Assembly (NCBI GenBank): GCA_021521415.1
Contig: JAIQDT010010035.1
Coordinates: 1-64,000, forward strand
Source: Bidens hawaiensis
Lineage: Eukaryota > Streptophyta > Magnoliopsida > Asterales > Asteraceae
DNA length: 64,000 bases
Direction: 5' to 3'
Part shown: positions 22,596 to 57,375 of the stretch, piece after piece
Layout of the letters: the number at the start of each line of letters is the position of its first letter
How positions within the stretch are numbered: position 1 is the first letter of the stretch
Notes under the pieces: generated by a model
The model's database searches: none
What the model saw: only the letters and a program-made list of their open reading frames with translations
Told to the model about the DNA's origin: nothing
Program-made: the position numbers and the translations under genes

Positions 22596-22645
22596 CTTTC
22601 AAGAAGTTTTGAAAAAACTGGAGAAAAATAAAGTTCTAGCTTTAT

Positions 22646-26165: not shown

Positions 26166-27790
26166 TCATTGCATTTGAACCCAAATACCAGGACTTGGGA
26201 TCTCTTTGTGAACCACAAACATAAGATAGTTCCCCACTGGAGCAATGTTACCGGACGGCGGAGCCCTCACAACAACTTGGTATCTTGACCTCCCTATAAT
26301 CTTGGAAGCGACGCCACCATCCAGTACCAACAATCTTTGATTCATTGAAAAAGAATGCGTGTTAAATGAAGGTGCCACCATTGTCACTGATACCGAGCTT
26401 AGATCCACATCGCCCGAAACATTAAACACAATAACCAATTGTTTTCCATAATGAATTTTAGTGTTTGTTACGGGCAGGATTATTGTTGGGCGTAACACAG
26501 ATGAATTCGCTTCCAAGTAAGAAGGAGAAAATGTCTCCAAACTCAGCTCAGTTGGGTAAAGGACATTTGTGAATTCATACTTATCATGTGGGTTACTTAC
26601 ACCAACAAGAACACGCCCATCTCGTAATAGAACTGCGGTGGAATGGTAGACTCTAGGCTTGGTGCTTGGATTTTGCACCTCAAATCGAGACCCTACTTGG
26701 TTATTAGGTAGGTATGCTGCTGGGCTTAGAACCGGGTTCCTCCCAAGCTCCCACCCGGCAACCCCTGCTGATGCTCCATTGATTATTAAAACATGACCAT
26801 TGGGAAGCAACAACATGTCACCCATGACGCGAGCCAAAGGCATGGTCTCTATGAACCATTGGGGTTCAGGGTCAGATATTTTGATTCGCCCGCAAGTATC
26901 CAATGCCCCATCAAATATCCCCTTATTTGCGTTAACAAATGCTCCTTTTGGTGTGCCCCACATACCAATACTTCAAACTCTGTCACGGTTTCTCCTTTTA
27001 TCTTCAAAGGGAGTAGCACCGCAGATCCTGTACTTGGATAATTCCTTGGTTGGCCACCGGGCATTGTTGGGTATGTCTTCAACACTAGATTCCTGGAGTA
27101 GTCGAACAATATAGCACGATTGTTCGCAAAAATGAAGAGATTCCCATCAGGATAGAGAAACACAAATGGGTATAAGTTATTCTCAATTTGAGGGTCATTA
27201 GTTTGAACTAGAAAGGGCAAACTAGGAGTGGCCTCATTTGGTGACATCTTCGGATAGAACTCATAGCTAAACGCCTGACGACCACCAATGATAATTTGCC
27301 TACCATCAGGCAATATATGATTGGTAGCGTACCATCTCTGTTTATTTAATCCGTTTTGCATCTCTTGCCAATCGCATAAGTCACATGACTTATAAACTCG
27401 AACAAGACGATAACCACCATCAAACCCACCGGTTTGGACTAAGCTTCCATCGGGCATTAAAGTTCCTGAGGAACACCACACGTTGGAGAGCACCATTAGA
27501 GGGCGTACGGAGTTTGATGCAATGTCATACTCAACTGAGTGTGCGGAACAATCAGTTGAGTTGGGACGGCATTTGCCTTCAGGAAGAGAGATATTTGAAA
27601 CTCCAAAATCTGTACGGTCATACATGACAACCCGATCATTGGGAAGCAGTTGCATGTGCATAGCTGAGATGCCTATGCTTGGTAGGAGGACGGACCACGA
27701 ACCACCTGCTGCGAGGCATCGTTGGGCATGTAGGAATATGAGAAAGAACAAAAGGAGGTGATGAGAGGGAATGTAAGTAGAAAGAACCAT
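26166..27790 (-). pseudogene. Galactose/glyoxal-oxidase-like gene, copy 1 (one frameshift)
   Basis: Intronless frame from ATG 27790: signal peptide (LLLFFLIFLHAQRCLA), then a Glyoxal_oxid_N kelch-type domain (NVWCSSGTLMPDGSLVQTGG, RWYATNHILPDGRQIIIGG, FVFLYPDGNLFIFANN, YPTMPGGQPRNYPSTGSAVL), then a DUF1929-type C-terminal domain (FSPSYLEANSSVLRP, MVAPSFNTHSFSMNQR, GNYLMFVVHKEIPSPG). Expected copper/cofactor residues are present: Cys in WCSSG, Tyr in RWYAT, Tyr-His in VYHST and His in VVHKE. These secreted radical-copper oxidases act in the cell wall. One base is missing near 26962 (after EVLVCG), so two frames overlap there; restored, the length would be about 541 residues, normal for the family. 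It could be a single-base sequencing error rather than a dead gene. Confidence 0.9.
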
Positions 27791-28234: not shown

Positions 28235-28654
28235 TGTCGAAGCACGAAACGAATCTTACCTGATCCATGACGATGTTTCCACGGATTTTCGAGATGAACG
28301 AACCACGTCTTGATCTTCTTCTTCTTCGGCTGCGCCTGCGACCTGCAATGCTGAGACCTGCAATGGTTTCGGGGGTGTGGAGGTGACTGCTAAGATATCC
28401 TGAGGATTTCTTGTTTACAGACACAAAAAGTGGTGGTGGCTCTTATTGAGCATGACCCATGATAAGGAGGTGGAGACCTCCTTATATAGAGTCTCATGGC
28501 CACCATCATGGTACCCTAATGGGCCTAGCCCAGTTAGGGTTACCTCCACAAAACCCCCTCGGCCCAATAACATTGTATTAGTCCATGTAATGAAATAAGC
28601 CAAACATAATAGATTTAGGGTCGTAGAACCGGGTTTTAGTACCATACCCCTACA
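28235..28654 (-). repeat. 3' LTR of the non-coding element
   Basis: 420 bp, plus-strand ends TGTCGAAGCACG and CCCCTACA. Adjacent to a G-rich polypurine tract on the minus strand (28655-28669). Confidence 0.92.
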
Positions 28655-28669
28655 AGCCCCCCCAAGTCC
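28655..28669 (-). other. Polypurine tract of the non-coding element
   Basis: Minus-strand GGACTTGGGGGGGCT abuts the 3' LTR. Confidence 0.8.
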
Positions 28670-28789
28670 AGTGTTGCTCCTGGGCGCGCAAGCGTCTAGG
28701 TGGAGCGCTGGACTTTATAAGGTGTGAGGCGGTTTTTTCCCTTTCCTTTGGCCTTGTCTTTATTGTCTGAGTTTTGAGAGGTTTTCTTC

Positions 28790-30065
28790 ATGATGGTGAC
28801 ATGTTGTAATAAAAGCCTGCGCGCGAGGCGACTTACGAGCTATAATAATGGTGACATGTTGTAATAAAAGCCTGCGAGCGAGGCGACTTACGAGCTATAA
28901 TAATAATGAAGCTTGCGCGTGAGGCGACTTACGAGCTATAATAATAATGAAGCTAGCGCGAGAAGCGACTTACGAGCTAAAATAATAATGAAGCTGGCGC
29001 GAGAGGCGACTTACGAGCTAAAATAATAATGAAGCTGGCGCGAGAAGCGACTTACGAGCTATAATAATAATAATGCCTGCGCGCGAGGGGCGTCTTACGA
29101 GCTGTAGCATAATAAAGCTTGCGCGTGAGGCGTCTTACGAGCTAAGAATAATAAAAGCCTGCGCGCGAGAGGCATCTTACGAGCTTTGAGAATAATAATG
29201 CCTGCGCGCGAGAGGCGTCTTATGAGCTATAAGAATAATAATTGAGCTGGCGCGTGAGGCGACTTACGAGCTGTGAACAATAATTGAGCTGGCGCGTGAG
29301 GCGACTTACGAGCTGTGAAAGTAATAAAGCTTGCGCGCGAGGGGCGTCTTATGAGCTATAAGAATAATAATTGAGCTGGCGCGTGAGGCGACTTACGAGC
29401 TGAGAATAATAACAACTTGCGCGCGAGGCGTCTTATGAGCTGTGTGAATAATAAAGCCTGCGCGTGAGGCGACTTACGGGCTGTAAGAATAATAACAGCT
29501 TGCGCGCGAGGCGTCTTATGAGCTGTGTGAATAATAAAGCCTGCGCGTGAGGCGACTTACGGGCTGTAAGAATAATAACAGCTTGCGCGCGAGGCGTCTT
29601 ATGAGCTGTGTGAATAATAAAGCCTGCGCGTGAGGCGACTTACGGGCTGTAAGAATAATAACAGCTTGCGCGCGAGGCGTCTTATGAGCTGTGTGAATAA
29701 TAAAGTCTGCGCGTGAGGCGACTTACGGGCTGTAAGAATAATAACTGCTTGCGCGCGAGGCGTCTTATGAGCTGTGTGAATAATAAAGCCTGTGCGTGAG
29801 GCGACTTACGGGCTGTAAGAATAACAACAGCTTGCGCGCGAGACGTCTTATGAGCTGTGTGAATAATAAAGCCTGCGCGTGAGGCGACTTACGGGCTGTA
29901 AGAATAACAACAGCTTGCGCGCGAGGCGTCTTATGAGCTGTGTGAATAATAAAGCATGCGCGTGAGGCGACTTACGGGCTGTAAGAATAACAACAGCGTG
30001 CGCGCGAGGCGTCTTATGAGCTGTGTGAATAATAAAGCCTGCGCGTGAGGCGACTTACGGGCTGC
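28790..30065. repeat. GC-rich tandem array, ~42-bp unit maturing into an 83-bp dimer
   Basis: Units share the skeleton GCGCGNGAGGCG, then ACTTACG or TCTTATG, then AGCTGT and an AATAATAA spacer. The left part (28800-29400) is irregular single units. From about 29400 it becomes a regular alternation of a CGACTTACGGGCTG form and a CGTCTTATGAGCTG form, repeated about eight times at an 83-bp period. Non-coding. Confidence 0.85.
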
Positions 30066-30242
30066 TTTATGTCCCGCGCCACGTGCAGATGTTGCATGCG
30101 CGTGCGCGTAGACTTTGGTTTTGTGTTATGCGCCACGCGCAGATGTTGCGTGCGCGTGCGTGTAGACTGTGACATGTGTGAGCATGTGACGCGTAAGCAT
30201 GTGTAATAGGCGTGAGCATATGTGATGCGTGAGCATATGGTA

Positions 30243-30830
30243 TGAGGATTCCCAACCCTTAAGTTTGACGCGTAGCCATATGGGATATTATGAGGATTCA
30301 AAAACCTTGAAGTTTGGCGCGTAGCCATATGGGATATTATGAGGATTCCCAACCTTGAAGTTTGGCGCGTAGCCATATGGGATATAAGGAGGATTCCCAA
30401 CCTTGGCGCGTAGCCATATGGGATATTATGAGAATTCCCAACCTTGAAGTTTGGCGCGTAGCCATATGGGATATTATGAGGATTCCCAACCTTGAAGTTT
30501 GGCGCGTAGCCATGTGGGATATTAGGAAGATTCCCAACCTTGGCGCGTAGCCATATGGGATATTAGGAGGATTCCCAACCTTGAAGTTTGGCGCGTAGCC
30601 ATATGGGATATTAGGAGGATTCCCAACCTTGGCGCGTAGCCATATGGGATATTAGGAGGATTCCCAGCCTTGGCGGCGTAGCCATATGGGATATTAGGAG
30701 GATTCCCAACCTTGGCGCGTAGCCATATGGGATATTAGGAGGATTCCCAACCTTGAAGTTTGGCGCGTAGCCATATGGGATATTAGGAGGATTCCCAACC
30801 TTGAAGTTTTGGCGCGTAGCCTGATGCGCG
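30243..30830. repeat. Tandem array of 48-bp and 39-bp units
   Basis: The core GCGCGTAGCCATATGGGATA is repeated about thirteen times, each followed by GAGGATTCCCAACCTT. Long units have an extra GAAGTTTGG, short ones lack it. Open frames through it (e.g. repeating ISHMATRQ on the minus strand) are artefacts of the periodicity. Confidence 0.85.
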
Positions 30831-31308
30831 CATGCACGGCGATAGAGTGGTGACTCGTGGGTGGCGTGCATGGCGGAGGTCTCTTGCGCAAAACCCAGAT
30901 GGTGGCTTCCGCTGCGGCACATGCACGGCTGCGGAGTGAGAACCCACGGGCGTGCGTACATGGCGGCGAAAGTCTGGTAATTTCTGGATCTGCAATTTAA
31001 GAGTCAGATCTGCAACTTTAGACCTAAAATCCAGGTCTGTAATCTAGACCTAGATCTGTAAATCAGATCTGGACAGATCTGAAACCCGGAGCAGATTTAA
31101 AACCATCACAGATTCGGAGATCTGATCATTCGAATCACGGATTTTCCTTCTTGCCTAGATCTGGAAGCCTCCTTTTAGATCTATGGATCTTTTTGAGCTT
31201 TAATAGAACAAGCTTTGAAGCCTTTTTCTGTAAACTTCCAGATCTGTGTTTTTCTTGGGAGAGATCTGACAGCCGAGATGAAGATCGAAGGGCAGTTCGT
31301 TGCGGTCC
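30831..31308. other. Leader region of the non-coding element
   Basis: Between array and primer site. It is rich in AGATCT and CAGATCTG palindromes (about 31000-31100 and 31150-31270). No coding sequence recognised. Confidence 0.5.
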
Positions 31309-31323
31309 CACGGATGGCGCCAA
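31309..31323 (-). other. Primer binding site of the non-coding element
   Basis: Minus-strand TTGGCGCCATCCGTG follows the 5' LTR directly. Confidence 0.8.
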
Positions 31324-31743
31324 TGTCGAATCACGAAACGAATCTTACCTGATCCATGATGATGTTTCCACGGATTTTCGAGATGAACGAACCACGTCTT
31401 GATCTTCTTCTTCTTCGGCTGCGCCTGCGACCTGCAATGCTGAGACCTGCAATGGTTTCGGGGGTGTGGAGGTGACTGCTAAGATATCCTGAGGATTTCT
31501 TGTTTACAGACACAAAAAGTGGTGGTGGCTCTTATTGAGCATGACCCATGATAAGGAGGTGGAGACCTCCTTATATAGAGTCTCATGGCCACCATCATGG
31601 TACCCTAATGGGCCTAGCCCAGTTAGGGTTACCTCCACAAAACCCCCTCGGCCCAATAACATTGTATTAGTCCATGTAATGAAATAAGCCAAACATAATA
31701 GATTTAGGGTCGTAGAACCGGGTTTTAGTACCATACCCCTACA
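31324..31743 (-). repeat. 5' LTR of the non-coding element
   Basis: 420-bp partner of 28235-28654 with the same ends. The LTR contains a TATATAGAG-like TATA site on the plus strand near 31571. Confidence 0.92.
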
Positions 31744-32296: not shown

Positions 32297-33920
32297 AGCA
32301 ACCTCCTTTATCACCATCTTCTCCTTTTAGTTCTCTTACTTTGTACCCCACCTTGTCAAGCCGCGGCTGCCGGTGGATCATGGTCTGTCCTCCTGCCAAG
32401 CATAGGCATCTCAGTCATGCACATGCAGCTACTTCCCAACGACCGTGTTGTAATGTATGATCGCATCGACTTTGGAACCTCCAACATCTCTCTTCCAAAT
32501 GGAAAATGTCGCCCTAACTCCACCGATTGCTCTGCCCACTCGGTCGAGTATGATGTTGGTTCCAATACCATACGTCCACTCATGGTGCTCACTAATGTCT
32601 GGTGTTCTTCGGGAACATTAATGCCTGACGGCAGCTTAGTCCAAACTGGAGGATGGGCTGATGGTTACCGCAGGGTAAGAATTTATAAGTCGTGTAACAC
32701 ATGTGACTGGAAAGAGATACCAAATGGATTGAACCAACAAACAAAGATGGTATGCAACCAATCACTTACTGCATGACGGCCGACAAATTATCATTGGCGG
32801 TCGCCAGGCATTTAACTATGAGTTCTTCCCCAAGATGTCGGCCACTGAGAACTCCCCAAGCTTTCCATTTTTGGTTCAAACGAATGATCCCAATGTTGAG
32901 AATAATTTATACCCATTTGTATTTCTCAATCCTGACGGAAATTTGTTCGTTTTTGCCAATAATCGTGCCATTTTCTTCAACTACTCTAGGAACCAAGTTG
33001 TAAAGACCTACCCAACAATGCCTGGTGGACAACCAAGGAATTACCCAAGCACCGGCTCTGCGGTACTACTCCCGTTGAGGATAAAAAAGGGGATAGTAGA
33101 TGATGTTGAAGTATTGGTTTGTGGGGGTGCACCTAAAGGAGTATTCGCTAATGCGAATAATGGAAGATTTGACAAAGCTCTAGATACATGTGGGCGAATT
33201 AAAATATCTGACCCGAATCCTCAATGGGTCATGGAAACAATGCCTTTAGGTTGAGTCATGGGTGACATGATGTTGCTTCCTAATGGACATGTTTTGATCA
33301 TTAATGGCGCATCGGCTGGGGTTGCAGGGTGGGAACTTGGGAGGAACCCGGTTCTCAGCCCTGTAACTTATAGACCAGATAACCAAATCGGGTCACGTTT
33401 TGAAGTGCAAAATCCTAGCACAAAGCCAAGAGTGTATCACTCCACAGCGGTTTTACTACGAGATGGTCGGGTTCTTGTGGGTGGAAGCAACCCCCACGAC
33501 AAATATGTGTTCACGAACGTGCTTTATCCAACCGAACAAAGCTTGGAGGCATTTTCTCCTTCGTATTTGGATTCAAGTTCTTCTTCGTTACGCCCTAGGA
33601 TTTTATTACCCAAGACTAAAACTGTGATGCGCTATGGAAAACGTGTTGCTATTACATTTACGGTATCAGGACGTGTAGATCTGAATTTGATCTCCGTGAC
33701 AATGGTGTCCCCTTCATTTAACACGCACTCGTTTTCTATGAATCAGCGGTTGTTGGTTCTGGATAGTGGTAACTCCACCAAAGCTCTCGGAAGGTCTGCT
33801 TATAAAGTGAGTGTAACAACACCTCCATCCAGAAACTTTGCACCTTCGGGTAATTATCTACTATATGTGGTTCATAAAGAAATTCCAAGCCCCGGCATTT
33901 GGGTCCGAATGCAGCGATAA
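32297..33920 (+). pseudogene. Galactose/glyoxal-oxidase-like gene, copy 2 (multiple lesions)
   Basis: Closely related to copy 1 and in the opposite orientation (head to head). The signal-peptide-like stretch (LLLLVLLLCTPPC) is in frame with GGSWSVLLPSIG, but no ATG precedes it before an upstream stop. The reading frame then breaks at a 4-bp tandem duplication ACAA|ACAA (32737-32744) in the NQQRWY region. In the downstream frame an Arg codon of the MPLARVMGD motif is TGA (33252-33254), a C-to-T change at a CpG. The rest, including VYHSTAVLLRDGRVLVGGSN and YVVHKEIPSPGIWV, is well preserved to the stop at 33920. The family role is extracellular oxidation of aldehydes or alcohols; this copy should not make a full protein. 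Confidence 0.9.
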
Positions 33921-35178
33921 AAATTCGAATCACTATTGCCTTGATTCCTGGATGCATTTATGGTTTCTTAATTTCCTTCATTTTCAAATCTTTCCACACA
34001 GTACTTGTTTAGTGTTGGTAGATTTCATTTATATATTTGGCCTCATAAGTTGGTATTTGAAGATGGTTTATTTTGCCAGTTTCATGAAGTTGTTATTTCA
34101 CAAAGGATTAACTCAAAAAAAATAAAAATAAGTGACAATGTTGTTGGGATTCTTCGACAATATATAATGCACCAGCTTCAAATGTTACTTGGTAAATAAA
34201 CCCTGGATTCAACCTAACTTACTACGATTAATAGATAGCAGTGAACTAACAAATTAACTAAACCTGATAAATCAAAACAATTAAACCAAAAACTCTAAAC
34301 AAATTAAACTCTTGACTTCTAATTTATCTACAATTTAAATTCCTCTTGAGTTATCACTTGTGAATTGAACATTTCTTTTCTCTTCTAGTCCTTTTCCAAA
34401 TTATCGCCAACAATGGCCTCCCATATTCCACAATCGGCTCATCTTCCCCAACTAACACCAACCTTGTTTCGTACCCGAACACTGTCAATGATCATTAAAT
34501 GTGTTGTTGCAACCCCCCCCCCCCTTTTTGATCATTCTAGCGACCCCGTCCCTGACTATTCCCTCGGTCGTATGAACTCCCATAACCATTCCATTGGCTA
34601 ATTAAGAATCTAGGTATCTGATCGAACAAACAACCGTTCTCTTTTAACCTCACTTGAATTATTCCAAGCTTAAATTCCTTCATCGCTTAACCTCATACTT
34701 CTCTTTTATATACGTGATGGATTTACAATGTGATGATAGAATATATAAGAGGTTAAACTAATTAAGTGTTGTTTGTGGTAAAACCATTGCACTTCACACA
34801 ATAGTTTCCTTCACATGATTAGCCTCTCATTATCATGCATGATTTGGAGGACCTTTCACATATGTGATTCCCTTACATCATTATATTTTGTATGATTAAC
34901 CTCTTACGTCTCTTTCGAGACATGAAAAAATCTTTGCAAGAAATATACAATCGGTGAACTTCTAAAAGACGTACAGAATAATTATGACCGGAAGAGTAAA
35001 CCCGTTATTGTTCTTATTCTTGATCAGTATTTCTTAGCTTTCAATTGGCCAAGGGACTGATCAGGGAGGGACAAGGTCGTGGGAATGATCAATATAAACC
35101 CAACTTTTCACTACAATGAAACATAATCCTAAGTTCCTAACACAGTTCAAACTCTATTTAACTAACTAGGGGATGTTT
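33921..35178. other. Intergenic, 3' flank of oxidase copy 2
   Basis: AT-rich, no gene recognised. A C run lies at about 34517-34526. The stretch at about 34320-34420 (CTCTTGAGTTATCAC, GTGAATTGAAC, CGCCAAC) recurs diverged at about 49490-49580, beyond the retroelement array. Confidence 0.45.
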
Positions 35179-37353
35179 TGTAAGGCCCCGTACCTGGTAG
35201 CCCTACTTTCGCGTCGGATTTACTCATAAACACAGTTCTTACAAATCAGAGTTCATTAAAACTTTCACGGAATATAAAAACTTTCTTAAAACATTTCATA
35301 TCAAAACACGTCTTGTCTTAAAACATCATTTTGCCTTTCAAAATAAACGAAACATTAAACTTAAACATCTTGAGTCTTCCGATGCCAGCCTCTTATTCAG
35401 TGCCACGTGTCTCCTCAAGCGAGATGCCTCCTCCTACTCACCTGCGTGCATACTAAAAGTCAGCTACGCAGAGTGAGTTCTAGTTAATCAAGCAACTTAT
35501 CATACAACCACTACATGCATCATATACGTATCCGAAGACACGTAGTCCACTATCTAACCTGCTTACCTTACCACTTAGCCTCTTATTTACACCTACCACC
35601 ATACCACTTTGCCACTTTAATAACGTATAACGTTATGCCACTTTGCCACTTTGCCACTTTAATAACGTTTAACGTTATGCCACTTTGCCACTTTAATGAC
35701 GTAGTCACGTATAGGCTTACCCTACCACGTACTATCGTCATGCCACTATCACTCTTACTACACCCTTGCCACTTCTAACACGCTCTACCTCTACTTATCT
35801 ACAACATGCTTCATATCATTTACATAATAAGCAAGTCACATCATAGCATACATACACACTAATAACCACTTGGCAATCACTGTCCTTGGCGATGCGTGCA
35901 ATATCCGAAGATCGTTCACGCACCAACAAGTATTATATAATAGCTACCTCGTATAACATCTATAGCATACACTTACCACTTAAGGTAAGTGTATTCACAC
36001 TTCACATCGAGTATGCACACAGCCCGAAAACATAACAAGGAAATGGGGCTAGAAACTCACCTGAACTCTGCCTCTTCCTCCGATAGTTGTAAATCCCTTC
36101 TTTAACTGAGCTCGTCTGACTGTATAAGTCACACGTATCAATACTCTCCTGATCTAATCTGGTGGCCTAGTATTAGCTTACTTTTACTTATCGTTTTAAT
36201 TTATTTTCTAATCGAACTCGACTTTAGGCGAAGTTAAACCTTAGGCGAACTTAGCTTTAGGCGAAGTTAAACCTTAGGCGAACTTAGATTTAGGCGAAGT
36301 TAACCCTTAGGCGAACTTAGCTTTAGGCGAAGTTAACCCTTAGGTGAACTTAGCTTTTAGGCGAAGTTGAACCTTAGGCGAACTTAGCTTTAGGCGAAGT
36401 TAAACCTTAGGCGAACTTAGCTTTAGGCGAAGTTAACCCTTAGGCGAACTTAGCTTTAGGCGAACTTAGCTTTTAGGCGAAGTTGTCATCAGGCGAACTT
36501 AGCTTTTAGGCGAAGTTGTCATCAGGCGAACTTAGCTTTTTAGGCGAAGTTGTCATCAGGCGAACTTAGCTTTTTAGGCGAAGTTGTCATCAGGCGAACT
36601 TAGCTTGCAGGCGAAGTTCATCAGGCGAACTTAGCTTGCAGGCGAAGTTGTCGGCTGCAGCTACTGTTCGTCCTTAATCATCTTCGTTTCTTAACCAAAT
36701 AACTCGATTTAGGTATCCACGGAATCGTCTGACCAGCGCCTACAAACCCCAACCATCAAATCGGCCTAACATCGATGTTTAAGGGGTGCGATTTAGGCAT
36801 ATAGGTTACGGGTTCTTTTAGGTTAACAATTAACCTATCAAATGCTAATCAATTCCAGTAATATTTGTTGTTTTAGGTTCGTTTATAACAAACTAACACA
36901 GATCTATGATTTCCCAAATCAAACCGAACCTATACGAACGAATTCTAACTATAAACGTACCTTGAACGAATCGAACTACGAACCCGGTTAAGCCTTGATG
37001 TTGTTTTGGTCCGTCACGACGTTCCAGCACCAACAAGCTCGGGTTTTCGCCTTCGGATCTTGGTTCGGGTTATAAGATGGTGTTGTGTGTGTTTTGGTGG
37101 TGTATGGAATATGTGAGAATGAGGATTAAATGGTGATTAATGGTATTTATATTTAGGGATCATGGGCTTAAGCCCATGGACTCTCCTTCCTTCTTTCATA
37201 ACCCAAGTCCATAACCCATATCCATTACCCAACACTAGCCCGACCCATACCAACTCCTACTCTATTTATTTATTTCCCGATAACCCGAGTAAACTTTCCC
37301 TCTATTATTAAGTAATACAATTAATATTATTTTGGAAATTTCGGGATGTTACA
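35179..37353 (-). repeat. Array LTR 1
   Basis: 2175 bp, outermost left LTR beside the left TGTTT. It contains a minisatellite at 36222-36652 (alternating GGCGAACTTAGCTTT and GGCGAAGTTAACC phrases, about 32 bp per pair). It has a private variant near its start (CCCGTACCTGG where the others read CCCGTACCCGG) and is about 17-19 bp shorter than the others. Confidence 0.92.
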
Positions 37354-38142
37354 AGTCTTCCCTCCTTAAAGAGGTTTCGTCCCCGAAACCTAACTTATTC
37401 CCTATAAAAGGAAAACTTCTTATATTTACACACTTTATTGAATCGTCTTTGTTCTCTTACTCCTGACTTGTAGTCATCTAATGGTGGTCATGTGTTTTAG
37501 CTATTTAAGGTAGCTTGTCCATGAGGCTCTCGATGTCTCAAGTCTCGTCTCGTCTTTCCAAGGGCTTCCTTTGATGCTTTTGTGACAATTTGGAAACTCT
37601 CTTAGCATATCTGACTACAAGCTCCAAGCGTGACTTCTTCATTACTTTTTGCAGTTGGAGTCATGTTGTTTTCGTATATCGCTCTGCCTCAGATTCTTCT
37701 CTTGTCCGCCTTTTTTGTAACAGTCATCTATCTTATCTCTCAGGAAACACAAATGTTATCACTCTAGGAATTATTTAGCACGTGATTCGTAAGGTAAGTA
37801 GTTAATGACGTTGATCAAGTGTAATTAACTATTTGCGTTACTCCTCAGGTTCTACATACTTCCCTTCATGATTTCACTTGTGCTTGTTTATACTCTTAAA
37901 CAGTTAATCAGTTAAGATCAATTAATCCTATCCCTAACCTGCACTCATTCTTCATTTAGCAAATAAGCCAACATTAACATACACCATTTACCATACACTT
38001 TACCTTTACTGAGCTTGCTTGAGTGACACATGGCTATCTTGAACTGGCATCTTCTTTCTTTCTCATTTTAAATCCCATTCTCTGTTCGAGTCTAAGCATG
38101 TAGGATGCTTAAATCTCTCGAACTTATGCTCTGATACCAACT
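37354..38142 (-). other. Array internal region 1
   Basis: 789 bp, non-coding. Minus-strand primer site TTGGTATCAGAGC ends two bases from LTR 2; minus-strand purine tract AAGGAGGGAAGACT abuts LTR 1. Short open frames have no family resemblance. Confidence 0.88.
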
Positions 38143-40334
38143 TGTAAGGCCCGTACCCGGTAGCCCTACTTTCGCGTCGGATTTACTCATAAACACAGTT
38201 CTTACAAATCAGAGTTCATTAAAACTTTCGCGGAATATAAAAACTTTCTTAAAACATTTCATATCAAAACACGTCTTGTCTTAAAACATCATTTTGCCTT
38301 TCAAAATAAACGAAACATTAAACTTAAACATCTTGAGTCTTCCGATGCCAGCCTCTTATTCAGTGCCACGTGTCTCCTCAAGCGAGATGCCTCCTCCTAC
38401 TCACCTGCGTGCATACTAAAAGTCAGCTACGCAGAGTGAGTTCTAGTTAATCAAGCAACTTATCATACAACCACTACATGCATCATATACGTATCCGAAG
38501 ACACGTAGTCCACTATCTAACCTGCTTACCTTACCACTTAGCCTCTTATTTACACCTACCACCTTACCACTTTGCCACTTTAATAACGTATAACGTTATG
38601 CCACTTTGCCACTTTGCCACTTTAATAACGTTTAACGTTATGCCACTTTGCCACTTTAATGACGTAGTCACGTATAGGCTTACCCTACCACGTACTATCG
38701 TCATGCCACTATCACTCTTACTACACCCTTGCCACTTCTAACACGCTCTACCTCTACTTATCTACAACATGCTTCATATCATTTACATAATAAGCAAGTC
38801 ACATCATAGCATACATACACACTAATAACCACTTGGCAATCACTGTCCTTGGCGATGCGTGCAATATCCGAAGATCGTTCACGCACCAACAAGTATTATA
38901 TAATAGCTACCTCGTATAACATCTATAGCATACACTTACCACTTAAGGTAAGTGTATTCACACTTCACATCGAGTATGCACACAGCCCCGAAAACATAAC
39001 AAGGAAATGGGGCTAGAAACTCACCTGAACTCTGCCTCTTCCTCCGATAGTTGTAAATCCCTTCTTTAACTGAGCTCGGCTGACTGTATAAGTTACATGT
39101 ATCAATACTCCCCTGATCTAATCTGGTGGCCTAGTATTAGCTTACTTTTACTTATCGTTTTAATTTATTTTCAAATCGAACTCGACTTTAGGCGAAGTTA
39201 AACCTTAGGCGAACTTAGCTTTAGGCGAAGTTAAACCTTAGGCGAACTTAGCTTTAGGCGAAGTTAACCCTTAGGCGAACTTAGCTTTAGGCGAAGTTAA
39301 CCCTTTGGCGAACTTAGCTTTTAGGCGAAGTTGAACCTTAGGCGAACTTAGCTTTAGGCGAAGTTAAACCTTAGGCGAACTTAGCTTTAAGCGAAGTTAA
39401 CCCTTAGGCGAACTTAGCTTTAGGCGAAGTTAACCCTTAGGCGAACTTAGCTTTTAGGCGAAGTTGTCATCAGGCGAACTTAGCTTTTAGGCGAAGTTGT
39501 CATCAGGCGAACTTAGCTTTTTAGGCGAAGTTGTCATCAGGCGAACTTAGCTTTTTAGGCGAAGTTGTCATCAGGCGAACTTAGCTTGCAGGCGAAGTTC
39601 ATCAGGCGAACTTAGCTTGCAGGCGAAGTTGTCGGCTGCAGCTACTGTTCGTCCTTAATCATCTTCGTTTCTTAACCAAATAACTCGATTTAGGTATCCA
39701 CGGAATCGTCTGACCAGCGCCTACAAACCCCAACCATCAAATCGGCCTAACATCGATGTTTAACGGGTGCGATTTAGGCATATAGGTTACGGGTTCTTTT
39801 AGGTTAACAATTAACCTAACAAATGCTAATCAATTCCAGTAATATTTGTTGTTTTAGGTTCGTTTATAACAAACTAACACAGATCTATGATTTCCCAAAT
39901 CAAACCGAACCTATACGAACGAATTCTAACTATAAACGTACCTTGAACGAGTCGAACTACGAACCCGGTTAAGCCTTGATGTTGTTTTGGTCCGTCACGA
40001 CGTTCCAGCACCAACAAGCTCGGGTTTTCGCCTTCGGATCTTGGTTCGGGTTATAAGATGGTGTTGTGTGTGTTTTGGTGGTGTATGGAATATGTGAGAA
40101 TGAGGATTAAATGGTGATTAATGGTATTTATATTTAGGGATCATGGGCTTAAGCCCATGGACTCTCCTTCCTTCTTTCATAACCCAAGTCCATAACCCAT
40201 ATCCATTACCCAACACTAGCCCGACCCATACCAACTCCTACTCTATTTATTTATTTCCCGATAACCCGAGTAAACTTTCCCTCTATTATTAAGTAATACA
40301 ATTAATATTATTTTGGAAATTTCGGGATGTTACA
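38143..40334 (-). repeat. Array LTR 2
   Basis: 2192 bp; minisatellite at about 39186-39631. It shares diagnostic variants with LTR 3 (AAGTTACATGTATC near 39090, CCCTTTGGCGAACTT). Confidence 0.92.
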
Positions 40335-41123
40335 AGTCTTCCCTCCTTAAAGAGGTTTCGTCCCCGAAACCTAACTTATTCCCTATAAAAGGAAAACTTC
40401 TTATATTTACACACTTTATTGAATCGTCTTTGTTCTCTTACTCCTGACTTGTAGTCATCGAATGGTGGTCATGTGTTTTAGCTATTTAAGGTAGCTTGTC
40501 CATGAGGCTCTCGATGTCTCAAGTCTCGTCTCGTCTTTCCAAGGGCTTCCTTTGATGCTTTTGTGACAATTTGGAAACTCTCTTAGCATATCTGACTACA
40601 AGCTCCAAGCGTGACTTCTTCATTACTTTTTGCAGTTGGAGTCATGTTGTTTTCGTATATCGCTCTGCCTCAGATTCTTCTCTTGTCCGCCTTTTTTGTA
40701 ACAGTCATCTATCTTATCTCTAAGGAAACACAAATGTTATCACTCTAGGAATTATTTAGCACGTGATTCGTAAGGTAAGTAGTTAATGACGTTGATCAAG
40801 TGTAATTAACTATTTGCGTTACTCCTCAGGTTCTACATACTTCCCTTCATGATTTCACTTGTGCTTGTTTATACTCTTAAACAGTTAATCAGTTAAGATC
40901 AATTAATCCTATCCCTAACCTGCACTCATTCTTCATTTAGCAAATAAGCCAACATTAACATACACCATTTACCATACACTTTACCTTTACTGAGCTTGCT
41001 TGAGTGACACATGGCTATCTTGAACTGGCATCTTCTTTCTTTCTCATTTTAAATCCCATTCTCTGTTCGAGTCTAAGCATGTAGGATGCTTAAATCTCTC
41101 GAACTTATGCTCTGATACCAACT
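40335..41123 (-). other. Array internal region 2
   Basis: 789 bp, same primer site and purine tract as region 1; almost identical. Confidence 0.88.
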
Positions 41124-43315
41124 TGTAAGGCCCGTACCCGGTAGCCCTACTTTCGCGTCGGATTTACTCATAAACACAGTTCTTACAAATCAGAGTTCAT
41201 TAAAACTTTCGCGGAATATAAAAACTTTCTTAAAACATTTCATATCAAAACACGTCTTGTCTTAAAACATCATTTTGCCTTTCAAAATAAACGAAACATT
41301 AAACTTAAACATCTTGAGTCTTCCGATGCCAGCCTCTTATTCAGTGCCACGTGTCTCCTCAAGCGAGATGCCTCCTCCTACTCACCTGCGTGCATACTAA
41401 AAGTCAGCTACGCAGAGTGAGTTCTAGTTAATCAAGCAACTTATCATACAACCACTACATGCATCATATACGTATCCGAAGACACGTAGTCCACTATCTA
41501 ACCTGCTTACCTTACCACTTAGCCTCTTATTTACACCTACCACCTTACCACTTTGCCACTTTAATAACGTATAACGTTATGCCACTTTGCCACTTTGCCA
41601 CTTTAATAACGTTTAACGTTATGCCACTTTGCCACTTTAATGACGTAGTCACGTATAGGCTTACCCTACCACGTACTATCGTCATGCCACTATCACTCTT
41701 ACTACACCCTTGCCACTTCTAACACGCTCTACCTCTACTTATCTACAACATGCTTCATATCATTTACATAATAAGCAAGTCACATCATAGCATACATACA
41801 CACTAATAACCACTTGGCAATCACTGTCCTTGGCGATGCGTGCAATATCCGAAGATCGTTCACGCACCAACAAGTATTATATAATAGCTACCTCGTATAA
41901 CATCTATAGCATACACTTACCACTTAAGGTAAGTGTATTCACACTTCACATCGAGTATGCACACAGCCCCGAAAACATAACAAGGAAATGGGGCTAGAAA
42001 CTCACCTGAACTCTGCCTCTTCCTCCGATAGTTGTAAATCCCTTCTTTAACTGAGCTCGGCTGACTGTATAAGTTACATGTATCAATACTCGCCTGATCT
42101 AATCTGGTGGCCTAGTATTAGCTTACTTTTACTTATCGTTTTAATTTATTTTCAAATCGAACTCGACTTTAGGCGAAGTTAAACCTTAGGCGAACTTAGC
42201 TTTAGGCGAAGTTAAACCTTAGGCGAACTTAGCTTTAGGCGAAGTTAACCCTTAGGCGAACTTAGCTTTAGGCGAAGTTAACCCTTTGGCGAACTTAGCT
42301 TTTAGGCGAAGTTGAACCTTAGGCGAACTTAGCTTTAGGCAAAGTTAAACCTTAGGCGAACTTAGCTTTAAGCGAAGTTAACCCTTAGGCGAACTTAGCT
42401 TTAGGCGAAGTTAACCCTTAGGCGAACTTAGCTTTTAGGCGAAGTTGTCATCAGGCGAACTTAGCTTTTAGGCGAAGTTGTCATCAGGCGAACTTAGCTT
42501 TTTAGGCGAAGTTGTCATCAGGCGAACTTAGCTTTTTAGGCGAAGTTGTCATCAGGCGAACTTAGCTTGCAGGCGAAGTTCATCAGGCGAACTTAGCTTG
42601 CAGGCGAAGTTGTCGGCTGCAGCTACTGTTCGTCCTTAATCATCTTCGTTTCTTAACCAAATAACTCGATTTAGGTATCCACGGAATCGTCTGACCAGCG
42701 CCTACAAACCCCAACCATCAAATCGGCCTAACATCGATGTTTAACGGGTGCGATTTAGGCATATAGGTTACGGGTTCTTTTAGGTTAACAATTAACCTAA
42801 CAAATGCTAATCAATTCCAGTAATATTTGTTGTTTTAGGTTCGTTTATAACAAACTAACACAGATCTATGATTTCCCAAATCAAACCGAACCTATACGAA
42901 CGAATTCTAACTATAAACGTACCTTGAACGAGTCGAACTACGAACCCGGTTAAGCCTTGATGTTGTTTTGGTCCGTCACGACGTTCCAGCACCAACAAGC
43001 TCGGGTTTTCGCCTTCGGATCTTGGTTCGGGTTATAAGATGGTGTTGTGTGTGTTTTGGTGGTGTATGGAATATGTGAGAATGAGGATTAAATGGTGATT
43101 AATGGTATTTATATTTAGGGATCATGGGCTTAAGCCCATGGACTCTCCTTCCTTCTTTCATAACCCAAGTCCATAACCCATATCCATTACCCAACACTAG
43201 CCCGACCCATACCAACTCCTACTCTATTTATTTATTTCCCGATAACCCGAGTAAACTTTCCCTCTATTATTAAGTAATACAATTAATATTATTTTGGAAA
43301 TTTCGGGATGTTACA
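41124..43315 (-). repeat. Array LTR 3
   Basis: 2192 bp; minisatellite at about 42165-42612; closest to LTR 2. Confidence 0.92.
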
Positions 43316-44104
43316 AGTCTTCCCTCCTTAAAGAGGTTTCGTCCCCGAAACCTAACTTATTCCCTATAAAAGGAAAACTTCTTATATTTACACACTTTAT
43401 TGAATCGTCTTTGTTCTCTTACTCCTGACTTGTAGTCATCGAATGGTGGTCATGTGTTTTAGCTATTTAAGGTAGCTTGTCCATGAGGCTCTCGATGTCT
43501 CAAGTCTCGTCTCGTCTTTCCAAGGGCTTCCTTTGATGCTTTTGTGACAATTTGGAAACTCTCTTAGCATATCTGACTACAAGCTCCAAGCGTGACTTCT
43601 TCATTACTTTTTGCAGTTGGAGTCATGTTGTTTTCGTATATCGCTCTGCCTCAGATTCTTCTCTTGTCTGCCTTTTTTGTAACAGTCATCTATCTTATCT
43701 CTAAGGAAACACAAATGTTATCACTCTAGGAATTATTTAGCACGTGATTCGTAAGGTAAGTAGTTAATGACGTTGATCAAGTGTAATTAACTATTTGCGT
43801 TACTCCTCAGGTTCTACATACTTCCCTTCATGATTTCACTTGTGCTTGTTTATACTCTTAAACAGTTAATCAGTTAAGATCAATTAATCCTATCCCTAAC
43901 CTGCACTCATTCTTCATTTAGCAAATAAGCCAACATTAACATACACCATTTACCATACACTTTACCTTTACTGAGCTTGCTTGAGTGACACATGGCTATC
44001 TTGAACTGGCATCTTCTTTCTTTCTCATTTTAAATCCCATTCTCTGTTCGAGTCTAAGCATGTAGGATGCTTAAATCTCTCGAACTTATGCTCTGATACC
44101 AACT
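43316..44104 (-). other. Array internal region 3
   Basis: 789 bp, same architecture as the other internal regions. Confidence 0.88.
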
Positions 44105-46298
44105 TGTAAGGCCCCGTACCCGGTAGCCCTACTTTCGCGTCGGATTTACTCATAAACACAGTTCTTACAAATCAGAGTTCATTAAAACTTTCGCGGAATA
44201 TAAAAACTTTCTTAAAACATTTCATATCAAAACACGTCTTGTCTTAAAACATCATTTTGCCTTTCAAAATAAACGAAACATTAAACTTAAACATCTTGAG
44301 TCTTCCGATGCCAGCCTCTTATTCAGTGCCACGTGTCTCCTCAAGCGAGATGCCTCCTCCTACTCACTTGCGTGCATACTAAAAGTCAGCTACGCAGAGT
44401 GAGTTCTAGTTAATCAAGCAACTTATCATACAACCACTACATGCATCATATACGTATCCGAAGACACGTAGTCCACTATCTAACCTGCTTACCTTACCAC
44501 TTAGCCTCTTATTTACACCTACCACCTTACCACTTTGCCACTTTAATAACGTATAACGTTATGCCACTTTGCCACTTTGCCACTTTAATAACGTTTAACG
44601 TTATGCCACTTTGCCACTTTAATGACGTAGTCACGTATAGGCTTACCCTACCACGTACTATCGTCATGCCACTATCACTCTTACTACACCCTTGCCACTT
44701 CTAACACGCTCTATCTCTACTTATCTACAACATGCTTCATATCATTTACATAATAAGCAAGTCACATCATAGCATACATACACACTAATAACCACTTGGC
44801 AATCACTGTCCTTGGCGATGCGTGCAATATCCGAAGATCGTTCACGCACCAACAAGTATTATATAATAGCTACCTCGTATAACATCTATAGCATACACTT
44901 ACCACTTAAGGTAAGTGTATTCACACTTCACATCGAGTATGCACACAGCCCCGAAAACATAACAAGGAAATGGGGCTAGAAACTCACCTGAACTCTGCCT
45001 CTTCCTCCGATAGTTGTAAATCCCTTCTTTAACTGAGCTCGGCTGACTGTATAAGTCACACGTATCAATACTCGCCTGATCTAATCTGGTGGCCTAGTAT
45101 TAGCTTACTTTTACTTATCGTTTTAATTTATTTTCTAATCGAACTCGACTTTAGGCGAAGTTAAACCTTAGGCGAACTTAGCTTTAGGCGAAGTTAAACC
45201 TTAGGCGAACTTAGCTTTAGGCGAAGTTAACCCTTAGGCGAACTTAGCTTTAGGCGAAGTTAACCCTTAGGTGAACTTAGCTTTTAGGCGAAGTTGAACC
45301 TTAGGCGAACTTAGCTTTAGGCGAAGTTAAACCTTTGGCGAACTTAGCTTTAGGCGAAGTTAACCCTTAGGCGAAATTTAGCTTTAGGCGAAGTTAACCC
45401 TTAGGCGAATTTAGCTTTTAGGCGAAGTTGTCATCAGGCGAACTTTGCTTTTAGGCGAAGTTGTCATCAGGCGAACTTAGCTTTTTAGGCGAAGTTGTCA
45501 TCAGGCGAACTTAGCTTTTTAGGCGAAGTTGTCATCAGGCGAACTTAGCTTGCAGGCGAAGTTCATCAGGCGAACTTAGCTTGCAGGCGAAGTTGTCGGC
45601 TGCAGCTACTGTTCGTCCTTAATCATCTTCGTTTCTTAACCAAATAACTCGATTTAGGTATCCACGGAATCGTCTGACCAGCGCCTACAAACCCCAACCA
45701 TCAAATCGGCCTAACATCGATGTTTAACGGGTGCGATTTAGGCATATAGGTTACGGGTTCTTTTAGGTTAACAATTAACCTATCAAATGCTAATCAATTC
45801 CAGTAATATTTGTTGTTTTAGGTTCGTTTATAACAAACTAACACAGATCTATGATTTCCCAAATCAAACCGAACCTATACGAACGAATTCTAACTATAAA
45901 CGTACCTTGAACGAGTCGAACTACGAACCCGGTTAAGCCTTGATGTTGTTTTGGTCCGTCACGACGTTCCAGCACCAACAAGCTCGGGTTTTCGCCTTCG
46001 GATCTTGGTTCGGGTTATAAGATGGTGTTGTGTGTGTTTTGGTGGTGTATGGAATATGTGAGAATGAGGATTAAATGGTGATTAATGGTATTTGTATTTA
46101 GGGATCATGGGCTTAAGCCCATGGACTCTCCTTCCTTCTTTCATAACCCAAGTCCATAACCCATATCCATTACCCAACACTAGCCCGACCCATACCAACT
46201 CCTACTCTATTTATTTATTTCCCGATAACCCGAGTAAACTTTCCCTCTATTATTAAGTAATACAATTAATATTATTTTGGAAATTTCGGGATGTTACA
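44105..46298 (-). repeat. Array LTR 4
   Basis: 2194 bp; minisatellite at about 45149-45597. It shares GGCGAAATTTAGC and CTCTATCTCTAC variants with LTR 5. Confidence 0.92.
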
Positions 46299-47087
46299 AG
46301 TCTTCCCTCCTTAAAGAGGTTTCGTCCCCGAAACCTAACTTATTCCCTATAAAAGGAAAACTTCTTATATTTACACACTTTATTGAATCGTCTTTGTTCT
46401 CTTACTCCTGACTTGTAGTCATCGAATGGTGGTCATGTGTTTTAGCTATTTAAGGTAGCTTGTCCATGAGGCTCTCGATGTCTCAAGTCTCGTCTCGTCT
46501 TTCCAAGGGCTTCCTTTGATGCTTTTGTGACAATTTGGAAACTCTCTTAGCATATCTGACTACAAGCTCCAAGCGTGACTTCTTCATTACTTTTTGCAGT
46601 TGGAGTCATGTTGTTTTCGTATATCGCTCTGCCTCAGATTCTTCTCTTGTCCGCCTTTTTTGTAACAGTCATCTATCTTATCTCTAAGGAAACACAAATG
46701 TTATCACTCTAGGAATTATTTAGCACGTGATTCGTAAGGTAAGTAGTTAATGACGTTGATCAAGTGTAATTAACTATTTGCGTTACTCCTCAGGTTCTAC
46801 ATACTTCCCTTCATGATTTCACTTGTGCTTGTTTATACTCTTAAACAGTTAATCAGTTAAGATCAATTAATCCTATCCCTAACCTGCACTCATTCTTCAT
46901 TTAGCAAATAAGCCAACATTAACATACACCATTTACCATACACTTTACCTTTACTGAGCTTGCTTGAGTGACACATGGCTATCTTGAACTGGCATCTTCT
47001 TTCTTTCTCATTTTAAATCCCATTCTCTGTTCGAGTCTAAGCATGTAGGATGCTTAAATCTCTCGAACTTATGCTCTGATACCAACT
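46299..47087 (-). other. Array internal region 4
   Basis: 789 bp, same architecture as the other internal regions. Confidence 0.88.
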
Positions 47088-49281
47088 TGTAAGGCCCCGT
47101 ACCCGGTAGCCCTACTTTCGCGTCGGATTTACTCATTAACACAGTTCTTACAAATCAGAGTTCATTAAAACTTTCGCGGAATATAAAAACTTTCTTAAAA
47201 CATTTCATATCAAAACACGTCTTGTCTTAAAACATCATTTTGCCTTTCAAAATAAACGAAACATTAAACTTAAACATCTTGAGTCTTCCAATGCCAGCCT
47301 CTTATTCAGTGCCACGTGTCTCCTCAAGCGAGATGCCTCCTCCTACTCACCTGCGTGCATACTAAAAGTCAGCTACGCAGAGTGAGTTCTAGTTAATCAA
47401 GCAACTTATCATACAACCACTACATGCATCATATACGTATCCGAAGACACGTAGTCCACTATCTAACCTGCTTACCTTACCACTTAGCCTCTTATTTACA
47501 CCTACCACCTTACCACTTTGCCACTTTAATAACGTATAACGTTATGCCACTTTGCCACTTTGCCACTTTAATAACGTTTAACGTTATGCCACTTTGCCAC
47601 TTTAATGACGTAGTCACGTATAGGCTTACCCTACCACGTACTATCGTCATGCCACTATCACTCTTACTACACCCTTGCCACTTCTAACACGCTCTATCTC
47701 TACTTATCTACAACATGCTTCATATCATTTACATAATAAGCAAGTCACATCATAGCATACATACACACTAATAACCACTTGGCAATCACTGTCCTTGGCG
47801 ATGCGTGCAATATCCGAAGATCGTTCACGCACCAACAAGTATTATATAATAGCTACCTCGTATAACATCTATAGCATACACTTACCACTTAAGGTAAGTG
47901 TATTCACACTTCACATCGAGTATGCGCACAGCCCCGAAAACATAACAAGGAAATGGGGCTAGAAACTCACCTGAACTCTGCCTCTTCCACCGATAGTTGT
48001 AAATCCCTTCTTTAACTGAGCTCGGCTGACTGTATAAGTCACACGTATCAATACTCGCCTGATCTAATCTGGTGGCCTAGTATTAGCTTACTTTTACTTA
48101 TCGTTTTAATTTATTTTCTAATCGAACTCGACTTTAGGCGAAGTTAAACCTTATGAGAACTTAGCTTTAGGCGAAGTTAAACCTTAGGCGAACTTAGCTT
48201 TAGGCGAAGTTAACCCTTAGGCGAACTTAGCTTTAGGCGAAGTTAACCCTTATGTGAACTTAGCTTTTAGGCGAAGTTGAACCTTAGGCGAACTTAGCTT
48301 TAGGCGAAGTTAAACCTTTGGCGAACTTAGCTTTAGGCGAAGTTAACCCTTAGGCGAAATTTAGCTTTAGGCGAAGTTAACCCTTAGGCGAACTTAGCTT
48401 TTAGGCGAAGTTGTCATCAGGCGAACTTAGCTTTTAGGCGAAGTTGTCATCAGGCGAACTTAGCTTTTTAGGCGAAGTTGTCATCAGGCGAACTTAGCTT
48501 TTTAGGCAAAGTTGTCATCAGGCGAACTTAGCTTGCAGGCGAAGTTCATCAGGCGAACTTAGCTTGCAGGCGAAGTTGTCGGCTGCAGCTACTGTTCGTC
48601 CTTAATCATCTTCGTTTCTTAACCAAATAACTCGATTTAGGTATCCACGGAATCGTCTGACCAGCGCCTACAAACCCCAACCATCAAATCGTCCTAACAT
48701 CGATGTTTAAGGGGTGCGATTTAGGCATATAGGTTACGGGTTCTTTTAGGTTAACAATTAACCTATCAAATGCTAATCAATTCCAGTAATATTTGTTGTT
48801 TTAGGTTCGTTTATAACAAACTAACACAGATCTATGATTTCCCAAATCAAACCGAACCTATACGAACGAATTCTAACTATAAACGTACCTTGAACGAGTC
48901 GAACTACGAACCCGGTTAAGCCTTGATGTTGTTTTGGTCCGTCACGACGTTCCCGCACCAACAAGCTCGGGTTTTCGCCTTCGGATCTTGGTTCGGGTTA
49001 TAAGATGGTGTTGTGTGTGTTTTGGTGGTGTATGGAATATGTGAGAATGAGGATTAAATGGTGATTAATGGTATTTATATTTAGGGATCATGGGCTTAAG
49101 CCCATGGACTCTCCTTCCTTCTTTCATAACCCAAGTCCATAACCCATATCCATTACCCAACACTAGCCCGACCCATACCAACTCCTACTCTATTTATTTA
49201 TTTCTCGATAACCCGAGTAAACTTTCCCTCTATTATTAAGTAATACAATTAATATTATTTTGGAAATTTCGGGATGTTACA
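47088..49281 (-). repeat. Array LTR 5
   Basis: 2194 bp, outermost right LTR beside the right TGTTT; minisatellite at about 48131-48580. Closest to LTR 4, with private changes such as CCTTATGAGAACTT. Confidence 0.92.
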
Positions 49282-49730
49282 TGTTTTGGATTTCTTATTT
49301 TAGCTCCTTATAACTTTTCATAAGTTAATAAGTTACAACCTTATAACTTATTAATTTATCCCCTCCCAATAACATACAATAAAAAACACATTTCAACTTT
49401 TACAAAAGTTAACAAGTCATAAGTTGCTTAAATTAGAACAGTTCAAATAACCGAAACAATTTTTAACTTTGACAATCGCATCTTAAAATTTACATCCAAA
49501 TTCAAATCCTCTTGAATTATCACATGTGAATTGAACTTTCTTTTCACTTTTGATCCTTCTCCAAATACCGCCAACGTACGTATACATCCATTACATTGTT
49601 AAATCGATACAAAGAAAAATAATCATAGCTCATCCAAATTGTCCATAATGTCAAATCACAGTCATTGATTCAAACTAATACAAATAAACATTCCATCCTT
49701 AAACATTGATGGTTGTGGGTGTTAATTTGA
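49282..49730. other. Right flank of the array; possible MITE split by it
   Basis: Joined across the array, the flanks read GGGGATGTTT then TGGATTTCTTA, and similar inverted phrases occur near 49420-49470. The array may therefore have landed in a small PIF/hAT-like MITE. Weak evidence. A diverged copy of 34320-34420 is present at about 49490-49580. Confidence 0.3.
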
Positions 49731-51227: not shown

Positions 51228-51299
51228 GGGCATTTGGTCTAGTGGTATGATTCTCGCTTAGGGTGCGAGAGGTCCCGAGTTTAATTCTCGGAATGCCCC
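51228..51299 (+). tRNA. tRNA-Pro (anticodon AGG)
   Basis: 72 nt. The acceptor stem GGGCATT pairs with AATGCCC, the D arm contains TGGTCTAGTGGTA, and the anticodon stem CTCGC/GCGAG encloses the loop TTAGGGT (anticodon AGG). The T stem is CCGAG/CTCGG. The T loop reads TTTAATT where plant tRNA-Pro normally has TTCGATT, i.e. both bases of a CpG have decayed. The box B promoter is therefore weakened, and only a poor T run follows (ATTCTTTC). It may be a pseudo-tRNA although all stems are intact. Confidence 0.85.
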
Positions 51300-52344: not shown

Positions 52345-53110
52345 AGTTTGATCCTCCCGTGTTACGTGAGCTTATTTAATTTTTTGTTTTTAATCGTTTT
52401 CCTATTTTATGATGATTTATTTTATTTTTTAACGTAGTTTTTTTTAATTCAATACATATATATTAGTTTGTTATTATATTTTTTTGCGTTTGGGTATTTT
52501 CAATTGAGATGTGTAGGTTTTTTAGTTTTTTAACGAACAAAAATACACGAACACGAACATGTTGATTTTTTTAAATGAACAAATATGAACACAAATATTT
52601 GTCTAATTAAAAAGGGGACGTCGATGTAGTTGACGATGATGGGTAGTATCGGAAGTTAACCGGCGATGGAGATGATAGACCATCAATGGAGAACATGTAA
52701 AGAAGATAAATTAAATTAGGATTTGAGGATGAAAGTATTTACCAATAAATAAAATCTTATAACCCATTTGGGAGCTATTAGGGTTTGGTAAGACCCATAA
52801 CCCGTGGAAAATTATTTTTTGATGATTAAGAGGTTATTTCACAAATAAATGAGATGTTATAACCCGTTTAAGGGTTATCCGGGTTTGATGAGACCCATGA
52901 CCCGCGAAAATTATTGTTTGATTATGAAAGAATTTTATAAATAAATATAAATGAGATGTTATAACCCATTTAAAGACTATCTGGGTTTGGTAAGACCCAT
53001 ACCCGCGATTTCGGGTCAAATTCATGAGAAGTCTTCATTTAGAAATCAAGCAATCTGGTGGCTCTAGAGAATTGGGGGGAAACCTGAGAGCGACACGTAG
53101 GATTTTATGG
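52345..53110 (+). repeat. AT-rich dispersed repeat, third locus
   Basis: Starts CTAGTTTGATCCTCCCGTG, like the start near 1867. It carries three GAGATGTTATAACCC-type modules (about 52740, 52850 and 52953), each followed by the GGTTTGG/TGAGACCCAT phrase, and ends GCGACACGTAGGATTTTA like the copy near 2815-2833. Confidence 0.6.
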
Positions 53111-55964: not shown

Positions 55965-57375
55965 ATAACTTTGTGGTATTACGAGGTTGTTTTACATTAT
56001 TCGTTTATAATATTTATATACTTTTGGATTTTATTTTTATTTATTGTAAGAAAGTTAATAATGTAATTAGGATTTGATGATGAAAGAGTTTCACAAATAA
56101 ATGAGATGCTTTAACCCGTTTTAAAAGCTATATATGTTTGGTGAGACCCATGATCCGCTTAATTTTTTTACTATAATTTTTTTTTTGAGTTATAAACAAT
56201 TTTTTTTAAAAGAAAAGGATATTAATTTTTAGTATATTCCTATTTTATAGGAATTTTCATATCGAATATTTGTTGAGACTAATTTTAATTTAATGAGATG
56301 CTATAATCCGTTTAAGGGTTATCTGGGTTTGGTGAGACTCATATCTGTGAATTCAAGTCAAATGCATAATGAGCAAAAATTTTATTTAGTGAGATGTTAT
56401 AACCCGTTTAAGGGCTATCTGGGTTTGGTGAGACTCATACTCGTGAATTCGGGTCAAATGCATGAGAAGCCTTCATTTACCAATAAAGCAATCTAGTGGC
56501 TTGAGAAAAAATATAAGAAAACCATATATTAATGCATGAGATCCATGACCCGCTTATTTTTTTTACTACAAGATTGTTTTTTAATTATAAATAACATATA
56601 TCTTTTTTTTAAAGAAACCATATATTAATTTTTAGTATATCCCTATTTTATAGGATTTTCATATCAAATAATTGGTGAGATTGATTTTAATTTAATGAGA
56701 TATTATAACCCGTTCAAGGAATATCTGGGTTTTTTGAGACCCATGACCGTGAATTTGGGTTAAATGCATGAAAAACCTCAATTTACAAATAATGCAATCT
56801 GGTGGCTTGAGAGAATGTATGAAGCAACTAGAGAGTTTTTTAAAGGTTTCGTATCCCCCGTATTACAAGGGTTGTTTTTACATTATTCGTTTATAATATT
56901 TATATATTTTTGGATTTTAATTTTATTTATTCTACTAAAGTTAATAATATACTTAGTATTTGATGATGAAAGAGTTTCATAAATTAATGAGATATTATAA
57001 CCCGGTTTAAAAACTATTTGGCCCTGTTGAGACCCATGACCCACTTATTTTTTTTACTATAAAATTGTTTTTCAATTATAAATAATATATATCATTTTTT
57101 ATAGAAATAAGATATTATTTTTAGTATATCCACATTTTATAGGATTTTCAAATCAAATATTTGGTGAGTTTCATTTTTAATTTAATGAGATGTTATAACT
57201 CGTTTAAGAAATACATGGGTTTGGTGAGACCCATACCCGTGAATTCGGGTCAAATGCATGAGAATCTTCTATTTACAAATAATGCAATATGGTGGCTTGA
57301 GAGAATGTAGAGTGCAACCAGAGAGCTTTTATAGGTTTCGTTTATATATATTATAGATAGATAGATAGATAGATA
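55965..57375 (+). repeat. AT-rich dispersed repeat, fourth locus, three to four units
   Basis: Successive units carry the TTTGATGATGAAAGAGTTTC start and GAGATGTTATAACCCG modules (about 56100, 56295, 56392, 56697, 56990, 57187), plus GTGAATTCGGGTCAAATGCA and CTTGAGAGAATGTA ends. It terminates in a (TAGA)n microsatellite at about 57355-57380. Collinear with 1865-2860. Confidence 0.65.

Follow-up and report, generated by a model that had tools for sequence, protein, structure and literature searches.

How does an LTR retrotransposon come to carry five LTRs at a single site: are units added in place, or does the element insert as a tandem already formed? The window, which is the whole 64,000-base stretch analyzed here and is free of N, was compared with itself. 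Four offset diagonals were obtained, spanning 35178-49281 with identities of 98.2-99.3%. They correspond to a head-to-tail array at 35179-49281, in which five LTRs alternate with four internal regions (Table 1), the repeat unit formed by one LTR and one internal region being 2.98 kb long. Both the self-comparison and the borders bear out an earlier note, which had described five LTRs of about 2.19 kb and four internal regions of 789 bp.

Table 1. Features of the array, with positions counted from the first base of the window.
Feature	Position	Strand	Remark
Target-site duplication, left, TGTTT	35174-35178	.	Directly before LTR1
LTR1, outer, 2175 bp	35179-37353	minus	Shorter mainly through deletion within its own 33-bp repeats
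33-bp tandem repeats in LTR1	36222-36652	.	
Internal region 1, 789 bp	37354-38142	minus	
Purine-tract-like site, 15-mer	37357-37371	minus	Copies start at 40338, 43319 and 46302
Primer-site-like 12-mer TGGTATCAGAGC (as read on the minus strand)	38128-38139	minus	Copies start at 41109, 44090 and 47073
LTR2, 2192 bp	38143-40334	minus	
33-bp repeats in LTR2	39186-39630		
Internal region 2, 789 bp	40335-41123	minus	
LTR3, 2192 bp	41124-43315	minus	Near twin of LTR2 (2 substitutions)
33-bp repeats in LTR3	42167-42611		
Internal region 3, 789 bp	43316-44104	minus	
LTR4, 2194 bp	44105-46298	minus	
33-bp repeats in LTR4	45149-45595		
Internal region 4, 789 bp	46299-47087	minus	Identical to internal region 2
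LTR5, outer, 2194 bp	47088-49281	minus	
33-bp repeats in LTR5	48132-48578		
Target-site duplication, right, TGTTT	49282-49286	.	Directly after LTR5

The pentanucleotide TGTTT occupies about 0.29% of the window positions, so that a chance match at two fixed outer edges is unlikely. Each of the eight inner LTR edges adjoins an internal region, and a target duplication was looked for there and none was seen. The array has thus the layout of a tandem LTR retrotransposon, with an LTR at both ends, LTRs and internal regions in alternation, and a single 5-bp target duplication that is confined to the outer edges. The restriction of TGTTT to the two outer edges, claimed previously, therefore holds, and the differing duplications at internal junctions that had been named as a counter-indication are absent, as the inner edges are without any. 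A target duplication at the outer edges only supports a single insertion.

All five LTRs have TG...CA ends. Each of the four internal regions contains one plus-strand copy of GCTCTGATACCA and one of CTTCCCTCCTTAAAG, and these are the only copies on that strand of the window. The order of the two motifs, a 12-mer that resembles a primer site and a 15-mer that resembles a purine tract, indicates a reading direction on the minus strand, with the primer site after the 5' LTR and the purine tract before the 3' LTR, as in plant-type LTR retrotransposons. The presence of both sites in every internal region, noted earlier without a strand, was found in the form of primer-site-like and purine-tract-like ends in all four. 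The 12-mer presumably fits the end of the plant initiator methionine tRNA, and the 15-mer is taken to be a purine tract by analogy with such elements. The ends of the element appear to resemble those of Ty3/gypsy chromoviruses, the start of the LTR and the context of the purine tract being presumably Tekay-like. No open frame of 120 codons or more is found in the array; no stop-free stretch in the six frames exceeds 96 codons across the array, or 55 codons in internal region 4, the copy examined. An autonomous LTR retrotransposon was ruled out, as there is no gag-pol coding region or coding capacity in the array, which looks instead like a non-coding LTR element that would rely on the proteins of another element. 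An assignment to the terminal-repeat retrotransposons in miniature (TRIM) was rejected on size, with LTRs of 2175-2194 bp against the limits of 100-250 bp for the LTR and less than 540 bp in total given for TRIMs (PMC4528315).

The flanks of the array contain other elements and genes. Of 25 open frames listed, 10 were submitted to Pfam and 8 gave matches, with one of the 8, a thioredoxin match, below its cut-off. The matches in flanking frames, to glyoxal oxidase, papain-type protease and parts of retrotransposons, suggest a plant host. An LTR element at 17067-23704 has LTRs (17067-18107 and 22662-23704) that are 99.4% alike, a target duplication GAGCT and, at 21156-22598 on the minus strand, a stop-free frame of 480 codons that matches Retrotrans_gag. 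A further element, at 28235-31743, has 420-bp LTRs that are 99.5% alike, no clear target duplication, and inner LTR edges that resemble those of the element at 17067-23704. It harbors tandem repeats at 28862-30064 with a period of roughly 41-42 bp, as judged from the self-comparison offsets. This tandem-repeat LTR element lies between two glyoxal-oxidase-like genes (26314-27712 and 32366-33769), which run in opposite directions, are 77% alike and are each spread across more than one stop-free frame. A tRNA-Pro (AGG) gene is found at 51228-51299, about 2 kb to the right of the array. Dispersed and diverged repeats, about 76-96% alike, are located near both ends of the window (18-530, 1875-2834, 52713-53106 and 55976-57348).

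The five LTRs are not equally distant from one another. Gaps were excluded from the substitution counts and age tests. Over their full length, 2 substitutions separate LTR2 from LTR3, compared with 15-23 (mean 19.0) for the other nine pairs. Together with their internal regions (INT2 and INT3), which add one substitution, these twin units are separated by 3 substitutions in total. The internal regions differ pairwise by 0-3 substitutions (0-0.38%). The LTR2-INT2 and LTR3-INT3 units look much younger than the remainder of the array, to judge from these counts. They argue against the origin of the whole array in one event, a reading that was set aside on their account, although conversion of a whole unit or faulty assembly may also have made the two alike.

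A large part of the LTR variation (21 of 41 variable events) falls in the 33-bp repeats, as do 8 of the 10 changes that LTR2/LTR3 share with no other LTR, a pattern that looks like conversion among subrepeats. Because such conversion can mimic age, alignment columns 905-1310 were left out of the age tests, which kept 1788 columns and 20 of the 41 variable events. Outside the repeats, LTR2 and LTR3 show no substitutions between them and the other nine pairs differ by 5-13 substitutions; the middle LTRs are 0-5 substitutions apart, and LTR1 and LTR5 differ by 13 (0.73%). At an assumed 1.3e-8 substitutions per site and year, the latter divergence would place the insertion about 0.3 million years ago. 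The outer LTRs (LTR1 and LTR5) carry 12 private substitutions and the middle lineages (LTR2/3 and LTR4) carry 4 (one-sided p 0.038). When the outer LTRs are compared with the internal regions, in which there are 3 changes in four copies, the one-sided p is 0.031, and 0.093 if the internal regions are counted as three lineages; for the comparison with the middle LTRs and internal regions jointly, it is 0.011. As these tests are one-sided, were picked after the data had been seen, assume equal mutation rates, and include one p above 0.05, they support younger inner parts without amounting to proof. Late growth of the array in place is likely.

The order of events was approached by enumerating growth histories made of three single-unit exchanges, in the LTR or in the internal region, with all breakpoint classes. 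Each gap was counted as one event in the histories, the trees and the shuffling of copy order. The histories were fitted to 23 variable non-repeat sites, 20 in the LTRs and 3 in the internal regions. Three exchanges explain the 23 sites with 23 changes, which is the minimum. The best exchange-free tree takes 24, a star to which the LTR2/LTR3 twin is added late takes 25, and a star with a simultaneous origin of all units takes 27. The margin of the growth model over the first two is thin, and its breakpoints are free to vary. With the repeat columns included, the star with late twin takes 48 changes and the best exchange-free tree 46, for a minimum of 45. At alignment columns 610 and 1232, LTR4 has the state of LTR5, and at column 1624 that of LTR2/3, and the conflict between these site patterns amounts to one change. 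Support is weak for an exchange inside LTR4, which would save this one change relative to the exchange-free tree. In all 1470 best histories, the second exchange involves the two LTRs on the right of an array that has three, within columns 610-1624. When the copy order was permuted, 432 of 2880 orders, the reversed one included, required no extra change at the non-repeat sites and at all LTR sites. The true order likewise requires none, and is hence compatible with growth by exchange; the 4 informative non-repeat LTR sites, too few for the purpose, place little constraint on copy order and on the direction of exchange.

The array probably results from the single insertion of a non-coding LTR element, followed by stepwise unequal exchange adding units in place. 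An LTR-internal-LTR element of about 5.2 kb, read on the minus strand of a plant chromosome, would have inserted once and duplicated 5 bp of its target. Its LTRs, or its units as soon as there were two or more, would then have paired out of register on sister chromatids or homologs, and crossing over or break repair would have added units of 2.98 kb, with the twins LTR2-INT2 and LTR3-INT3 as the product of the last exchange. We infer that exchange also supplied the first added unit, that there were three steps, and that exchange itself was the cause. The earlier proposal that one insertion grew in place stands as to the single insertion, given the outer duplication, and as to at least one late duplication in place, given the twins and the younger inner parts, provided that the twins were not produced by conversion or by an assembly error. 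Whole-unit gene conversion could be an alternative source of the twins. As to mechanism, for which either unequal exchange or template switching had been put forward, stepwise exchange is the best reading and a pre-formed tandem cDNA its main rival.

According to this rival, which is possible but rather unlikely, the element inserted as a ready tandem, generated by template switching, by read-through RNA from a one-LTR circle or by joined cDNA, and the LTR2/LTR3 twin arose later. The single outer target duplication fits equally well. At column 1624, LTR1 and LTR5 agree and LTR2-4 are different, which is expected since a tandem template makes the end LTRs alike, and the 25 changes of the star with late twin are just 2 over the minimum. 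Complexes formed by template switching have been published (PMC1950507), and a 2025 survey was unable to choose between the two origins (PMC11899658). However, the middle LTRs and internal regions of a ready tandem should match the age of the outer LTRs, whereas they show fewer changes (one-sided p 0.01-0.09).

The two remaining explanations concern the reality of the units and the number of insertions. One or more units may have been falsely duplicated during assembly, most likely LTR2-INT2 or LTR3-INT3, for example by the joining of two haplotypes. The 3 substitutions between the twins would agree with this, but the 15-23 substitutions in the other nine LTR pairs make LTR1, LTR2/3, LTR4 and LTR5 distinct sequences, the window has no N, and the neighboring 6.6-kb LTR element is a normal single copy with its GAGCT duplication, so that such an artefact is improbable. 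Several independent or nested insertions of the same family side by side, or recombination between neighboring elements, would be a known route to complex elements in cereals (PMC1950507). In the present array, the outer duplications match and inner ones are absent, and the four internal regions are all 789 bp long and 0-3 substitutions apart; the state of the inner edges and of the target duplications led to the rejection of independent or nested insertion, and this explanation has next to no likelihood. A stronger version of insertion followed by unequal exchange, according to which the array is a dated and still-growing series that records three successive exchanges in place, with a newest unit young enough for alleles of one to many units to segregate in the species, is doubtful. 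If true, the locus could show in nature how a dispersed retroelement becomes a macrosatellite, and could settle the choice between recombination in place and tandem insertion.

Tandem LTR structures are described as common and highly polymorphic in plants in a 2025 survey, which reports 266 potential cases in the rice pangenome, and more in Arabidopsis, almond and cotton, and leaves their origin by recombination or tandem insertion undecided (PMC11899658). In TLI1 and TLI2, loci treated in detail in this IDENTAM survey, LTRs and internal regions alternate, inner LTRs are shared and one short duplication lies outside, as in the present array, but these have two internal regions and three LTRs where four internal regions are found here (PMC11899658). 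Perfect 5-nt duplications are given for 10 of the 28 clear Nipponbare cases, and these 28 are described as containing coding domains, unlike the array (PMC11899658). For barley BARE1, at least 4600 three-LTR structures are stated (PMC7215508).

Non-coding elements with several LTRs in one orientation are known from the maize TRIM Wukong, of which 15 of 89 intact elements are multi-LTR, eight with three LTRs, five with four, and two with six and seven, most of them reported with target duplications (PMC4528315). Their units are shorter than 540 bp and their LTRs 100-250 bp long, in contrast to about 2.19 kb here (PMC4528315). LTRs also alternate with internal domains in Cassandra arrays, which reach 12 repeats, but Cassandra LTRs are very short and include a 5S rRNA-like part, and their repeat units are reported without differences, whereas the units here differ (PMC7215508). 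The template-switch complexes of Triticeae are likewise complex elements that entered as a unit, and the example illustrated has a flanking duplication; in these, two parent sequences are fused, whereas a single family is present here, with copies seemingly of different age (PMC1950507). Satellites derived from Ogre in Lathyrus also have a retrotransposon as the source of tandem repeats, but short 3'UTR repeats are expanded in that case, and the whole LTR-internal unit here (PMC7004042).

Four units at one site are inside the published plant range, of up to 7 LTRs in Wukong and up to 12 repeats in Cassandra. Satellites and macrosatellites are recognized by long, many-unit arrays at one or more genomic loci, against the four units here, and the array may be a candidate for the early stage of satellite formation suggested before. 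The array taken alone is one more example of a kind already known in plants, from which it is set apart by its long LTRs and lack of a coding part, its four units and their readable differences. It holds four cores and four to five LTRs that can be told apart, whose differences can order events, which a two-unit array hardly allows, and with outgroup copies and other accessions the locus could directly test the recombination model for the origin of tandem LTR elements.
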